Part shown: positions 47,399 through 51,314 of the stretch, in pieces
Layout of the letters: each line of letters starts with the position of its first letter
How positions within the stretch are numbered: the first letter of the stretch is position 1
DNA from: Parvibaculum sp.
GTDB taxonomy: Bacteria; Pseudomonadota; Alphaproteobacteria; Parvibaculales; Parvibaculaceae
DNA length: 59,650 bases
NCBI RefSeq assembly: GCF_030694575.1
Contig: NZ_JAUYUS010000107.1
Span: 1-59,650 of the forward strand
Direction: 5' to 3'
Program-made: the position numbers and the translations under genes
The notes under the pieces: model-generated
What the model saw: only the letters and a program-made list of their open reading frames with translations
Told to the model about the DNA's origin: nothing
The model's database searches: none

Positions 47399-47413
47399 TC
47401 AAGAGGCATGCCA
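47399..47413 (-). promoter_or_regulatory. Sigma-54-like motif upstream of amt paralogue 1
   Basis: The minus strand reads TGGCATGCCTCTTGA, 127 bases upstream of the start codon. It resembles the -24/-12 consensus TGGCACG-N4-TTGC with A for C at the last position, and matches the copies upstream of glnK and the third transporter. The rest of the 458-bp gap 47273-47730 holds terminator hairpins for the next gene and no gene of its own. Confidence 0.55.
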
Positions 47414-47593
47414 TGAAGCTGCCCGGGAACGAGGCACACAAGATCAACGGCTTAGCGGGAAAAGAGGGAAAGCGGCGGCGTGCGGCGCCCCTCAGTGCCT
47501 AGAGTTTGACCTCTGTTTCGAGGCAACAGGCACAAATATTATGCAAAGTGGTCTTGCTTCGCCGGTGCCAGCCTGTTCAGGGCAGATGACGAT

Positions 47594-47627
47594 AAAAAAA
47601 GAGCCCGGAGAGGGAATCTCCGGGCTC
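47594..47627 (-). terminator. Intrinsic terminator of the glnK-amtB operon
   Basis: On the minus strand GAGCCCGGAG pairs with CTCCGGGCTC and is followed by TTTTTTT. Two other hairpins, GGCGGAGGT/ACCTCCGCC (47687-47715) and AAACCCC/GGGGTTT (47641-47669), lie between it and the gene end. Confidence 0.88.
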
Positions 47628-47730
47628 CAGTGTCACCGCCAAACCCCGAAAAGTGGTGGCGAGGGGTTTGACGGCCGTGGGAGAGAGGCGGAGGTCCGAG
47701 GGAAGAACCTCCGCCCTGGAGAAACGGCCG

Positions 47731-49074
47731 TTAGCGAGCCGCGAACTCCGGATAGGCCTCGACGCCGATCTCGGCCTTGTCGAGCCCCATCATTTCTTCC
47801 TCCTCGGTGCAGCGGATGCCGACCGTGAAGCGCAGGGCGAGCCAGAGCACGAGGCTCGTCACGGCGACGAAGATGCCGATGGAGATCACGCCCGTCGCCT
47901 GTGCGGCGAAGTTCGTGTCGGCATTGGTCAGCGGCACCGCCATGGTGCCCCAGATACCGCAGAAGAGATGGACGGGGATCGCGCCCACCACGTCGTCGAT
48001 ATGGAGTTTGTCGAGGAGCGGCACAGTCAAGACGACGATCACGCCGCCGATGGCGCCGATGCCGAGCGCCCAGCCGAGCGTCGGTGCGAGCGGTTCCGCC
48101 GTGATCGAGACGAGGCCGGCCAGGGCGCCGTTGAGCGCCATGGTGATGTCGACCTTCTTGTAGAGGAGCTGCGTCAGGACCATCGCGGCAACCACGCCAG
48201 CCGCAGCCGCCATGTTGGTGTTGATGAAGATGGTCGCGACCGCGTTGGCTTCGTCAGGCGAACCGAGCGCGAGCTCCGAGCCGCCGTTGAAGCCGAACCA
48301 GCCGAGCCACAGGATGAAAGTACCGAGCGTCGCGAGCGGCATGGACGAACCGGGCATCGGATTGACGCCGCCGCCCTTGATGTACTTGCCGATACGCGGG
48401 CCGAGAATGAGCGCGCCCATCAGAGCGGCCCAGCCGCCCGTCGAGTGCACAAGCGTCGAACCGGCGAAGTCGGAGAAGCCAAGCTCGCTGAGCCAGCCGC
48501 CGCCCCACTGCCAGGCGCCCTGGATCGGATAGATGAAACCCGTCAGGAAAACCGTGAAGAGGAGGAACGGCCAGAGCTTGATGCGCTCCGCGAGCGTGCC
48601 CGACACGATCGATGCGGCGGTCGCCACGAAGACCATCTGGAAGTACCAGTCGGAAGCCGATGCGTAGCCCGTTCCGTCCGCGGCTACGCCGCCGGAATCG
48701 TCCACACCCCACAGCGCGATGGAGCCGAAATAGCCGCCGTCGACGCCCGAATACATCAGGTTGTAGCCGACAAGGTAGTACATGATACCGGCGACCGAAT
48801 AGAGTGCGATGTTCTTCGTGCACTGCATCGCGACGTTTTTGGAGCGGACAAGACCCGCTTCGAGCATTGCGAAACCGGCCGCCATGAACATGACGAGGAA
48901 GCCGGTCATCAGAAACAGCAATGTGTTGAACACATAGGCCGTATCGGGCGCGCTTAGCGCAAAGGCCTCTTCGGCCACTTCTTCGACTTCCTGCGCGAAC
49001 GCAGGAGCCGTCATGGCCAGTACGGCGAGACCCGCCATCCCCGCCAAACGTGTATATCTTCCAGTGTTGGTCAT
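47731..49074 (-). CDS. amtB: Ammonium transporter AmtB (GlnK-linked)
   Basis: The 447-residue protein starts MTNTGRYTRLAG with a cleavable signal (ends APAFA). It has pore histidines in LVHSTGG and IPVHLFCG, DFAGS, and GWFGFNGGSEL at the ammonium-selecting site. It conducts ammonia/ammonium across the inner membrane and is blocked by GlnK. The ATG at 49074 follows GAGAGGAA. It lies 64 bases after glnK in the same operon, the classic arrangement. Confidence 0.95.
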   Translation of the reverse strand: MTNTGRYTRLAGMAGLAVLAMTAPAFAQEVEEVAEEAFALSAPDTAYVFNTLLFLMTGFLVMFMAAGFAMLEAGLVRSKNVAMQCTKNIALYSVAGIMYYLVGYNLMYSGVDGGYFGSIALWGVDDSGGVAADGTGYASASDWYFQMVFVATAASIVSGTLAERIKLWPFLLFTVFLTGFIYPIQGAWQWGGGWLSELGFSDFAGSTLVHSTGGWAALMGALILGPRIGKYIKGGGVNPMPGSSMPLATLGTFILWLGWFGFNGGSELALGSPDEANAVATIFINTNMAAAAGVVAAMVLTQLLYKKVDITMALNGALAGLVSITAEPLAPTLGWALGIGAIGGVIVVLTVPLLDKLHIDDVVGAIPVHLFCGIWGTMAVPLTNADTNFAAQATGVISIGIFVAVTSLVLWLALRFTVGIRCTEEEEMMGLDKAEIGVEAYPEFAAR

Positions 49075-49138
49075 CGTTCCTCTCTCGTTAGAGGGTTGCC
49101 TTCCCCATTTCACGAAAGAACCTCGATCCTTGTACGGA

Positions 49139-49477
49139 TCAAAGAGCTTCCGCGTCCGTTTCGCCGGTGCGGATGCGCAACACCTGCTCGACGGAAATCA
49201 CAAAAATCTTGCCGTCGCCGATCTGACCCGTCTTGGCGGCACCGCTGATGGTGGACACCACTGCGTCGGTCTGGTCGGACGCCACGACCACTTCAATCTT
49301 GAGTTTCGGCAGAAAGTTCACCGCATACTCCGCGCCACGATAGATTTCGGTCTGACCCTTTTGACGGCCGTAGCCTTTCACTTCCGTCACGGTCAGGCCC
49401 TGGACGCCGATCGCGGTCAACGCTTCACGGACTTCGTCCAGCTTGAATGGCTTGATGATCGCCATAACGAGCTTCAT
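49139..49477 (-). CDS. glnK: Nitrogen regulatory protein P-II (GlnK)
   Basis: The 112-residue protein is a standard [23 protein letters not shown], the T-loop with uridylylation Tyr51 ([13 protein letters not shown]), and the B-loop [12 protein letters not shown]. The trimer senses ATP/ADP and 2-oxoglutarate and gates AmtB. A GAGGAA ribosome-binding site precedes ATG 49477. Upstream lie a sigma-54-like motif and an NtrC-like dyad, consistent with induction under nitrogen limitation. Confidence 0.97.
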
Positions 49478-49741: not shown

Positions 49742-49805
49742 GCCGCCTCCGCAACGGTCAGCCTACGGATCGATCCCTCCATAGGTGTGAGCCGGGTTGC
49801 ACAGA

Positions 49806-49833
49806 CAAAAAGGGCGCCCCGAGGGGCGCCCTT
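49806..49833 (-). terminator. Intrinsic terminator of the third ammonium transporter gene
   Basis: On the minus strand AGGGCGCCCC/GGGGCGCCCT is followed by TTTTTG, 25 bases past the stop. It lies in the 380-bp gap before glnK's promoter region, which otherwise holds no gene. Confidence 0.85.
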
Positions 49834-49857
49834 TGGTTTCGTGCGGTGTGGAGAGGC

Positions 49858-51195
49858 TTACTGGATCACTTCGCCATGCTGGCTTATGTCGAGACCTTCC
49901 ACTTCTTCCTGCGGTGTCACGCGCAGGCCGAAGAAGAGCTTCGTCACCATCAGCAGGATGAACGTGCCCAGCCCGCAATAGACGATCGTGGCGATAATGC
50001 CCTTGATCTGAATGCCGACCTGGGCCCAGTTGCCTTCGAGGCCGCCAAGCGGCGCATCCGCGCCGGTAATGGCGGCGGAGGCGAAGACGCCTGTCAGCAC
50101 GGCGCCGACGATACCGCCGATCGCATGGACGCCGAACACGTCGAGAGCGTCGTCGTAGCCGATCGCCTTCTTCAGGCTCGTCGAGGCGAGGAAGCAGACG
50201 ATGCCCGCCGCGAGACCGATCCAGAGCGCGCCGGAAGGATCGACGAAGCCGGACGCGGGCGTGATCGCGACGAGACCCGCCACCGCGCCGGTCGCAAGAC
50301 CGAGCAGCGTGGGCTTCCGGTGGACGATCCATTCGATGAACATCCAGGCGAGCGCGGCTGCTGCCGTTGCGATCTGCGTGACCGCCATCGCCATGCCGGC
50401 GCGGCCGTCGGCCGCCAGTTCCGAACCGGCGTTGAAGCCGAACCAGCCGACCCAGAGCAGGGACGCGCCGACCATCGTGAGTACGACATTGTGCGGCGCC
50501 ATGTTCTCGGTGCCGAAGCCCTTGCGCGGGCCGAGCACGAGGCAGGCGACGAGACCCGCGACACCGGCATTGATGTGCACCACGGTGCCGCCGGCGAAGT
50601 CGAGCACGCCGTCTTCACTGAGGAAGCCGCCGCCCCATACCCAATGGCAGATCGGCGCATAGATGAAGACGAGCCAGAGCGCCATGAAGACCAGCATGCT
50701 GGAAAACTTCATGCGGTCGGCGAAGGCGCCGGTGATGAGGGCGGGGGTGATGATCGCGAAGGTCATCTGGAAGGTCATGAAGACGCTTTCGGGGATCGTG
50801 CCCGAAAGCTCGTCGACGCCCATGCCGCTCAGGAAGAGCCGGTCGAGGCCGCCGATATAGGCATTCATCGAGCCGCCATCCTGGAAGGCCAGCGAATAGC
50901 CGATCACCATCCAGACCACGGACATCAGCGCCGCGATGGCAAAATTCTGCGCCGTCATGGCGACGACGTTCTTCTTGCGGACCATGCCGCCGTAGAAAAG
51001 CGCAAGACCCGGAATGGTCATCATCAGGACCAGCGCGGTCGAGGTGAGCATCCAGGCGGTGTCGCCGGCGTTCAATACCGGTGCTTCTTCCTGGGCGAAG
51101 GCGCTGCCCGCCGTCGCCAGTAGCGCAAAGGAGGCTGCCGCCAGGCCCACAGCGCCGCTGCGGACAAGCCCCCGGAACTTTGTGTTGTCGGTCAT
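49858..51195 (-). CDS. Ammonium transporter AmtB, canonical paralogue 3
   Basis: The 445-residue protein has a signal peptide (ends AFAQEE), FMTFQMTFAII (F107 gate region), CHWVWGGG (W148), LDFAGG, the twin histidines VVHINAG and FGVHAIGG, and GWFGFNAGSEL: the full E. coli AmtB set. It is closer to proteobacterial AmtB than the other two paralogues. ATG 51195 begins MTDNTKFRG. It has its own upstream motif (51300-51314) and terminator. Confidence 0.95.
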   Translation of the reverse strand: MTDNTKFRGLVRSGAVGLAAASFALLATAGSAFAQEEAPVLNAGDTAWMLTSTALVLMMTIPGLALFYGGMVRKKNVVAMTAQNFAIAALMSVVWMVIGYSLAFQDGGSMNAYIGGLDRLFLSGMGVDELSGTIPESVFMTFQMTFAIITPALITGAFADRMKFSSMLVFMALWLVFIYAPICHWVWGGGFLSEDGVLDFAGGTVVHINAGVAGLVACLVLGPRKGFGTENMAPHNVVLTMVGASLLWVGWFGFNAGSELAADGRAGMAMAVTQIATAAAALAWMFIEWIVHRKPTLLGLATGAVAGLVAITPASGFVDPSGALWIGLAAGIVCFLASTSLKKAIGYDDALDVFGVHAIGGIVGAVLTGVFASAAITGADAPLGGLEGNWAQVGIQIKGIIATIVYCGLGTFILLMVTKLFFGLRVTPQEEVEGLDISQHGEVIQ

Positions 51196-51299
51196 CCGTC
51201 TCTCTCCGTTATGCGCCGGCGGACTTGTCCCCGGCTTTTATTCCGCGCGGTGTACCCGTCTCCCGGCGGGCATCGCTCCGGCGCTTGGCCGGTTGCTTC

Positions 51300-51314
51300 T
51301 CAAGAAGCATGCCG
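51300..51314 (-). promoter_or_regulatory. Sigma-54-like motif upstream of the third ammonium transporter
   Basis: The minus strand reads CGGCATGCTTCTTGA, 105 bases upstream of the start. Thirteen of 15 bases equal the glnK copy. The 418-bp gap 51196-51613 also has an AT-rich stretch (about 51395-51465, with TATAAT) but no gene. Confidence 0.55.

Follow-up and report, generated by a model that had tools for sequence, protein, structure and literature searches.

The window analyzed here, a stretch of 59,650 nucleotides of Parvibaculum sp. DNA (contig NZ_JAUYUS010000107.1), carries three ammonium-transport units, namely amt3, glnK-amt2, and amt1. Each is preceded by a short motif with the shape of a sigma-54 promoter and an adenine at position -12, where the consensus has cytosine. 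This raises the question of whether the motifs are promoters, and whether the adenine reflects a sigma factor of altered specificity or belongs to these genes in particular.

Three copies of one motif precede the ammonium-transport units

The features of the locus are summarized in Table 1. A first-pass annotation had reported three 15-mers on the minus strand, 127, 119, and 105 bases upstream of amt1, glnK, and amt3. All three are present at the coordinates given there, and the distances agree with the 126, 118, and 104 nt that separate the end of the motif from the start codon, if counted from the last motif base. The genome-wide scan suggested in the same annotation returned matches confined to the three units: YGGCAYGNNTCTTGA has exactly three exact matches in the genome of 3,796,026 bases, every one within the window and located 5' of amt1, glnK-amt2, and amt3, respectively. 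Read backwards as a control, YGGCAYGNNTCTTGA had no match in the same 3,796,026 bases.

Table 1. Positions of promoter-like elements, NtrC-like sites, genes, and hairpins in the ammonium-transport locus
Feature	Position	Strand	Remarks
Sigma-54-type -24/-12 element of amt3, CGGCATGCTTCTTGA	51300..51314	-	A at -12 is base 51300
Position 137 nt 5' of the amt3 -12 base	51429..51445	-	Probably degenerate in own genome; outside best NtrC matches
amt3, ammonium transporter	49858..51195	-	PF00909
Intrinsic terminator-like hairpin, amt3/glnK gap	49809..49834	-	Among the two strongest in the region
NtrC-like palindrome TGCACAGAATTTGTGCA, centre 137 nt 5' of the glnK -12 base	49725..49741	-	0 mismatches to TGCAC-N7-GTGCA
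Sigma-54-type element of glnK-amt2, CGGCACGGTTCTTGA	49596..49610	-	A at -12 is base 49596
glnK, PII signalling protein	49139..49477	-	PF00543
amt2, ammonium transporter, downstream of glnK	47731..49074	-	PF00909
Intrinsic terminator-like hairpin, T-rich tail, amt2/amt1 gap	47600..47628	-	Terminator scan
Imperfect NtrC-like site TGCATAATATTTGTGCC, centre 138 nt 5' of the amt1 -12 base	47529..47545	-	2 mismatches
Sigma-54-type element of amt1, TGGCATGCCTCTTGA	47399..47413	-	A at -12 is base 47399
amt1, ammonium transporter	46019..47272	-	PF00909

Roughly estimated from the letters that are fixed in the pattern, about 0.5 exact matches would be expected genome-wide. With up to two mismatches, seven matches in the window faced a shuffled mean of 5.82, and 39 of 100 shuffles reached seven, which is ordinary. 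Since the pattern was derived from the same three sites, the clustering of the copies, and not their number, constitutes the evidence. Looser sigma-54 patterns, counted over the whole genome, were excluded from the evidence. One such pattern gave 45 matches in the own genome versus 43 for the reversed control, and another gave 58 versus 37. A third, silent on the -12 base as the N at its end was ignored, showed a clear excess in some genomes (for example, 26 versus 4 in G066) and little in the own genome (7 versus 4).

Conservation is stronger evidence than the motif count that the motif is real. At least one exact copy was found in all 27 genus members searched, including the own genome. A TTGA-ending element was present at amt1, glnK, and amt3 in seven of seven same-genus three-gene loci (L512-L518), which had been picked for already known motif matches. 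In genus member G019, the sole copy precedes a DUF1465 gene and not amt; in G005, the neighbourhood of the sole copy yielded neither an amt nor a PII gene.

Twelve terminator-like hairpins were detected in the region, compared to a shuffled mean of 5.7, and no Rfam family reached its gathering score between 45800 and 51700. A short inverted repeat, GCTTCT-TG-AGAAGC, overlaps with the motif at amt3 and has no counterpart in the copies at amt1 and glnK.

Sigma-54 and NtrC machinery

All three elements consist of GG at -25/-24, ten bases, and the -13/-12 dinucleotide (GG-N10-GA). G occupies -13 in each; the class scan demanded this base and provides no independent test of it at class level. As the first-pass annotation had noted in reading TTGA for the usual TTGC, the consensus C at -12 is missing and replaced by A in all three, hence the label variant for what would act like a sigma-54 promoter.

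The own genome contains a single rpoN match. The helix-turn-helix of its product aligns closely with that of the solved sigma-54 (mhestvsrvt versus mhestisrvt), and the RpoN box (arrtvakyre) is identical. NtrB and NtrC are encoded as well, and the NtrC translation (L033) includes GAFTGA. In total, seven matches to enhancer-binding proteins were found, four of them strong.

The enhancer evidence across the three units is uneven. NtrC-like sites in the own genome show no mismatch at glnK and two at amt1, and none is good at amt3. For glnK, sites with at most two mismatches occur in seven of ten distinct genus or family regions, five at 137-139 and two at 116. The corresponding count for amt3 is four of nine; among its eight genus orthologues, four carry such a site (≤2 mismatches) centred 136-137 nt 5' of -12. 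For amt1, the window region is the only one among ten with a clean site of at most two mismatches, one other match containing Ns. Class-wide, palindromes with at most one mismatch accompany 10 of the 73 elements at glnK-amt and 9 of the 68 at glnB-glnA, compared with 0.64 on average after shuffling in either group; their frequency and their distance 5' of the element are comparable for the two promoter types.

The -12 base differs between glnK-amt and glnB-glnA promoters

The comparison with glnB proposed in the first-pass annotation proved to be the informative one. The predicted glnB-glnA promoter of the own genome, TGGCACGAGCCGTGC (L198), has C at -12, in contrast to A at amt and glnK. For the class survey, glnK loci were located by tblastn, the glnB scan was strand-aware, and motif-picked loci (L120-L179) were excluded from the tallies. 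Among the sampled Alphaproteobacteria, the -12 base of glnK-amt elements was A in 47, T in 9, G in 7, and C in 10 cases (n=73; non-C 63/73), whereas that of glnB-glnA elements was C in 64, A in 3, and T in 1 (n=68; Fisher p ~4e-24, uncorrected for relatedness). Both elements were found in 52 genomes: 46 combined non-C at glnK with C at glnB, four showed the reverse, two had C at both promoters, and none had non-C at both. The reversed state was consistent in one sampled family, and family f174 had C at -12 in both promoter kinds. In one sampled order, 13 of 17 glnK-amt elements had C; the A rule is not universal.

When only the evenly drawn class set is considered, 14 of 22 glnK-amt elements had A (p ~1.4e-4 versus 0.25), and the shortage of C (3/22) was not significant (p ~0.16). 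Adding the alphaproteobacterial members of the phylum set brought A to 21 of 33 (p ~3e-6). At 18 named loci no glnK was found; seven of them had an element (≤1 mismatch) 5' of the amt match, with A in three, T in two, G in one, and C in one. The nifH promoters of the class had C in 8/8.

The glnB-glnA promoters deviate at another position. T at -15 is absent in 55 of 68, with a nearly random composition at this position (A.22, C.18, G.41, T.19). None of the 141 promoters has lost both T-15 and C-12.

Under the strict criterion, no element was detected in 32 of 105 glnK-amt and 12 of 80 glnB-glnA regions of Alphaproteobacteria; for glnK-amt outside the class, the figure was 42 of 58. Regions whose downstream gene was not identified (27 outside the class, 14 inside) were set aside, as were seven glnB-glnA regions outside the class; all were without element, except for five of the 14 in-class regions (A in four, C in one). 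The element was not found at several Rhodobacterales-type loci. NtrC of Rhodobacterales is sigma-54-independent, and the element-less loci there would fit this.

Judged from these alignments, A at -12 is a conserved, promoter-specific variant and not a general tolerance by the sigma factor, because the own glnB-glnA promoter and 64 of the 68 in the class have C.

Comparison to known systems

The canonical sigma-54 consensus is given as YTGGCACGrNNNTTGCW (PMC13207237). The elements described here share with canonical promoters the GG box, the fixed spacing, and TTG at -15 to -13, but A replaces C at -12 and is conserved at ammonium-transport genes. In E. coli, the same gene pair glnK-amtB has a similar element 5' of glnK (TGGCACACCGCTTGC, L240), with C at -12 unlike the A of the window. 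The alphaproteobacterial glnB-glnA promoters, located in the same genomes and accompanied by NtrC-like palindromes at similar rates, differ in both the -12 and the -15 base.

In regions enriched in a Salmonella sigma-54 ChIP-chip study, predicted sites end in TTGA (STM0649.S, wcaA) or TTGT (pspA) (PMC3844500). C at -12 can therefore be regarded as consensus and not as invariant. The sites of pspA and STM0649.S are likewise off-consensus at -12, but these are single sites in one genome, whereas the pattern reported here is gene-specific across a class.

In Sinorhizobium meliloti, the transcription starts mapped for glnB and glnK are described as having RpoN motifs (PMC3616915), and amtB, glnB, and glnK are reported as lowered in Bradyrhizobium rpoN mutants (PMC13207237). 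The latter study permitted some -12 variants. Its listed glnB site, TGGCATAGACCCTGC, fits the glnB kind described above; the listed amtB site, AGGGGTCCCGGCTGT, is poor, and a candidate TTGA-type site may have been overlooked in the published list (PMC13207237). At the level of titles and the beginnings of abstracts, we found no publication describing A at -12 for glnK or amtB promoters of Alphaproteobacteria; prior notice is possible, and -12 elements are reportedly the subject of a 1998 paper by Wang and Gralla.

Proposed explanation and alternatives

We consider three separate NtrC-activated sigma-54 promoters with a promoter-specific A at -12 to be the best explanation (probability about 0.82). 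The motifs would be the -24/-12 elements of these promoters, at which RNA polymerase is expected to start. Phosphorylated NtrC, bound upstream, would activate all three, probably including amt1 and amt3 with their weak own-genome sites, and amt3, glnK-amt2, and amt1 would be induced together upon nitrogen shortage. The three units thus appear to share one kind of nitrogen-starvation switch. The sigma-54 shape recognized in the first-pass annotation is borne out by the spacing, rpoN and ntrBC, the clear enhancer-like palindrome of glnK, and conservation in the class. The -24 box and the reciprocal -12 and -15 bases of glnK-amt and glnB-glnA elements throughout the class complete the sequence basis.

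A sigma-54 of changed specificity, accepting A at -12 everywhere, would account for A at all three promoters here and at the DUF1465 gene in the genus. The earlier suggestion that the lineage tolerates A is too broad, given C at the glnB-glnA promoters. With the RpoN recognition regions close to the enterobacterial ones, C at the nifH promoters, and the paired comparison of 52 genomes also against it, we regard such a change as highly improbable. The inverted repeat at the amt3 copy would agree with a motif that is no promoter at all but an RNA leader element or the operator of a different regulator. The absence of this repeat from the other two copies, the lack of an Rfam match, and a class alignment in which preferences flanking the -24/-12 core are weak make this equally far-fetched, and the related operator considered in the first-pass annotation found no support. 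Alternatively, A might mark promoters under an enhancer-binding protein other than NtrC, as four strong matches in the genome and the weak sites at amt1 and amt3 would allow. This seems unlikely: the two promoter types hardly differ in how often and how far upstream NtrC-like palindromes are found, and in Caulobacter both regions, glnBA and glnK, are bound by NtrC, though that NtrC is without GAFTGA (PMC10274813).

A different doubt accepts the promoters and disputes only a role of the -12 base. T-15 and C-12 may be partly redundant, either being enough, and the choice between them a historical accident. That no promoter has lost both, that -15 is close to random at glnB-glnA, that families such as f174 have C in both promoters, and that the evenly drawn set shows no significant C shortage all speak for this account; the excess of A at glnK-amt in both sets and the same assignment of bases in 46 of 52 genomes speak against it. 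We rate it as a serious possibility, somewhat short of even odds.

Within the favoured reading of three NtrC-activated promoters, the off-consensus base could weaken or retune the closed complex at the -12/-11 fork. Ammonium transport would then demand more active NtrC than glnB-glnA and be kept tightly off when ammonium is present. This putative role of the -12 base in setting the NtrC threshold is proposed tentatively. Still more speculatively, the base may be a selected setting that sorts NtrC-driven alphaproteobacterial sigma-54 promoters, with TTG-A/T/G at the ammonium-transport genes and non-T-TGC at those of glutamine synthetase, and gives a built-in order of response to nitrogen limitation; one family would have exchanged the settings.

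Over much of the Alphaproteobacteria, the off-consensus letter seems to be common to ammonium-transport genes, and the same genome's glutamine-synthetase switch usually lacks it. In many Alphaproteobacteria, a search requiring GC at -12 would pass over the promoters of ammonium transport. If the -12 base tunes the response, the part played by the -12 element in ordering genes within one regulon becomes directly testable with the natural promoter pairs that many genomes offer.

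Probable promoter elements of the ammonium-transport units

The minus-strand positions that the first-pass annotation gave for three 15-mers (47399–47413, 49596–49610, and 51300–51314) were confirmed in the window sequence, and a whole-genome scan (3,796,026 bases, 135 contigs) found the exact pattern, YGGCAYG-NN-TCTTGA, three times, all in the window. The window makes up one complete contig of this assembly. The reversed control pattern gave 0 matches in the same scan. Three Amt proteins and a PII protein are encoded there in three transport units (amt3, glnK-amt2, and amt1), with gaps from motif to start codon of 126 nt (amt1), 118 nt (glnK), and 104 nt (amt3). 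Among the matches listed, the amt2 protein has its best named relative in Parvibaculum sp. EAC77 (88% identity). No sigma-70-type match was found in 45850–51700, which is barely informative because shuffles yield only 1.0 on average.

In the form YGGCAYG-N4-TTGA, the motif shows GG-N10, the spacing of sigma-54 elements, and carries A in place of the consensus C at -12. The genome holds one rpoN match; in alignments, the helix-turn-helix and RpoN box of its product are close to those of solved sigma-54 chains of the enterobacterial type. An NtrB-NtrC pair is also encoded, with GAFTGA present in NtrC. Upstream of glnK, a perfect TGCAC-N7-GTGCA palindrome is centered 137 nt before the -12 base, and the predicted layout is that of an NtrC-activated sigma-54 promoter. 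Counting the window, 7 of 10 distinct genus/family regions have such a site, with up to two mismatches, before glnK (five at 137–139 nt, two at 116 nt); L519 and L040 come from one genome, which was entered once in these tallies. At amt1, the palindrome has two mismatches and is centered at 138 nt; such sites occurred in 1 of 10 regions, window included, and a second match contains Ns. At amt3, no good NtrC-like palindrome was found upstream in the own genome, and 4 of 9 regions, window included, had a site with up to two mismatches at 136–137 nt; two of these four have a further site at 108 nt. For these two genes, where enhancer sites are poor, the element itself is the chief evidence for the putative promoter. 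It is very probable that all three copies act as sigma-54 promoters, with NtrC as the most likely activator. In a same-family genome (L521), the amt1 upstream region is N-rich and its best NtrC-like match, which includes Ns, is untrustworthy.

Coordinates of predicted features in the window and in other parts of the own genome
Feature	Position	Strand	Remark
Terminator-like hairpin, amt3/glnK boundary	49809–49834	minus	strong
Terminator-like hairpin, amt2/amt1 boundary	47600–47628	minus	strong
TTGA element before DUF1465 gene (C16)	L013:1501–1515		gap to gene 60 nt
DUF1465 gene (C16)	L013:1576–2178		
TauD-family dioxygenase gene (C21)	L508:613–1425		

The -12 base at glnK-amt and glnB-glnA promoters

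Upstream regions of PII genes were collected from the best 80 loci listed by similarity to the AmtB of the window, from 32 genomes (the own genome and those of 31 AmtB-similar loci), from 66 genomes sampled evenly across the class, and from 70 genomes of the phylum, with further stretches fetched on top, giving 295 regions after removal of duplicates. The sampling covers part of the listed places, and loci given by the search are biased to the best matches. The element definition was blind to the -12 and -15 bases, and on the opposite strand, as a measure of chance, it matched in 8/295 regions.

The first-pass annotation had suggested that the lineage might tolerate A at -12; A at this position is not general in the lineage, as the own glnB-glnA operon carries TGGCACGAGCCGTGC (L198), with C at -12. 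Among 105 alphaproteobacterial glnK-amt regions, 73 had the element and 32 (about a third) lacked it in its strict form; the -12 base was A in 47, T in 9, G in 7, and C in 10, with T at -15 in 71/73. The glnB-glnA elements (68 of 80 regions), in contrast, had C in 64, A in 3, and T in 1, and their -15 base was near random (T in 13/68). Fifty-two genomes had the element at both promoters: 46 combined non-C at glnK with C at glnB, four showed the reverse, two had C at both, and none had non-C at both. An excess of A at glnK-amt was also seen in the evenly drawn class set (14/22), although the shortage of C was not significant there; p-values on these counts ignore relatedness. The A at -12, a puzzle in the first-pass annotation, leads to a pattern that differs by gene in a large part of the class.

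Counts of the -12 base in alphaproteobacterial elements by sample
Promoter and sample	A	T	G	C	Elements	Regions without element
glnK-amt, AmtB-similar set	26	4	3	7	40	24
glnK-amt, evenly drawn class set	14	1	4	3	22	6
glnK-amt, phylum set (incl. window)	7	4			11	2
glnB-glnA, AmtB-similar set	2	1		27	30	
glnB-glnA, class set	1			35	36	12
glnB-glnA, phylum set				2	2	

Class-set regions without an identified downstream gene (n = 14) had A in four, C in one, and no element in nine. Outside the class, glnK-amt elements (n = 16) carried C in 12, G in 4, and A in 0, and 42/58 regions had none. At nifH promoters C was found in 8/8; of 289 genomes, these eight had a match above the family cut-off. Among named loci without a detected glnK, 7/18 had, in the 400 nt before the amt match, an element with no more than one mismatch, with A in three (L041, L074, L111), T in two (L076, L099), G in one (L061), and C in one (L051). 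As these are mostly non-C, the tendency follows ammonium transport and not glnK alone, albeit in small numbers.

The four reversed genomes are those of L062 (Sphingomonadaceae bacterium; glnB element L184), L113 (Qipengyuania; L200), L066 (Croceicoccus; L206), and G047 (L317). The order of G047 was sampled via 29 genomes, with the glnB of G047 counted in both samples. The family of G047, f12, had C at 6/6 glnK-amt elements (five genomes) and A or G at 6/6 glnB-glnA elements. Elsewhere in the order, glnK had TTGA in 4/4 (f177 and f171) and C in 7/7 (f172, f173, f174, and f176), and the element was absent in 2/2 of f175. The families differ, so the -12 setting varies between lineages and is not universal. 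Rhodobacterales-type loci (L097, L100, L101, L104–L106, L108, L112, and L119) had no sigma-54 element upstream of glnK by the criterion used in the scan of these loci, except for a distant one-mismatch match in L097.

Possible role of the -12 base

Promoters with weak -12 elements, such as Klebsiella nifH, depend strictly on bound activator. According to two reports, the helix-turn-helix and region I lie at and just downstream of -12 in the sigma-54 closed complex, where melting starts (PMC5505868, PMC7057263), and an altered base there is therefore well placed to change the stability or opening of this complex. By analogy with the weak -12 elements, A at -12 may keep ammonium transport silent until NtrC reaches a high level of phosphorylation, and transport would then switch on later than glnB-glnA. 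Such a tuning role may be set beside a rival account, to which we give slightly less than even odds: the -15 and -12 contacts could be redundant, without regulatory meaning. T at -15 and C at -12 were both absent in 0/141 promoters. Published Salmonella ChIP-chip regions include predicted sigma-54 sites that end in TTGA and TTGT (PMC3844500), and in Alphaproteobacteria glnK/amtB are described as RpoN-dependent or as having RpoN motifs (PMC3616915, PMC13207237).

Other off-consensus elements

A TTGA sigma-54-like element also precedes a DUF1465 gene (loci L013, L510, and, from one genome, L134 and L528). It lies 60 nt upstream in the own genome and in a Parvibaculum relative (80% identity); in another genus member (54% identity), TGGCATGGCTCTTGA precedes the extrapolated start by about 34 nt. 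The DUF1465 family includes the Caulobacter cell-cycle adaptor RcdA, through which nitrogen status would be tied to the cell cycle. Furthermore, TGGCACGGCTTTTGT, with an off-consensus -12 base, was found 74 nt upstream of the TauD-family dioxygenase gene.
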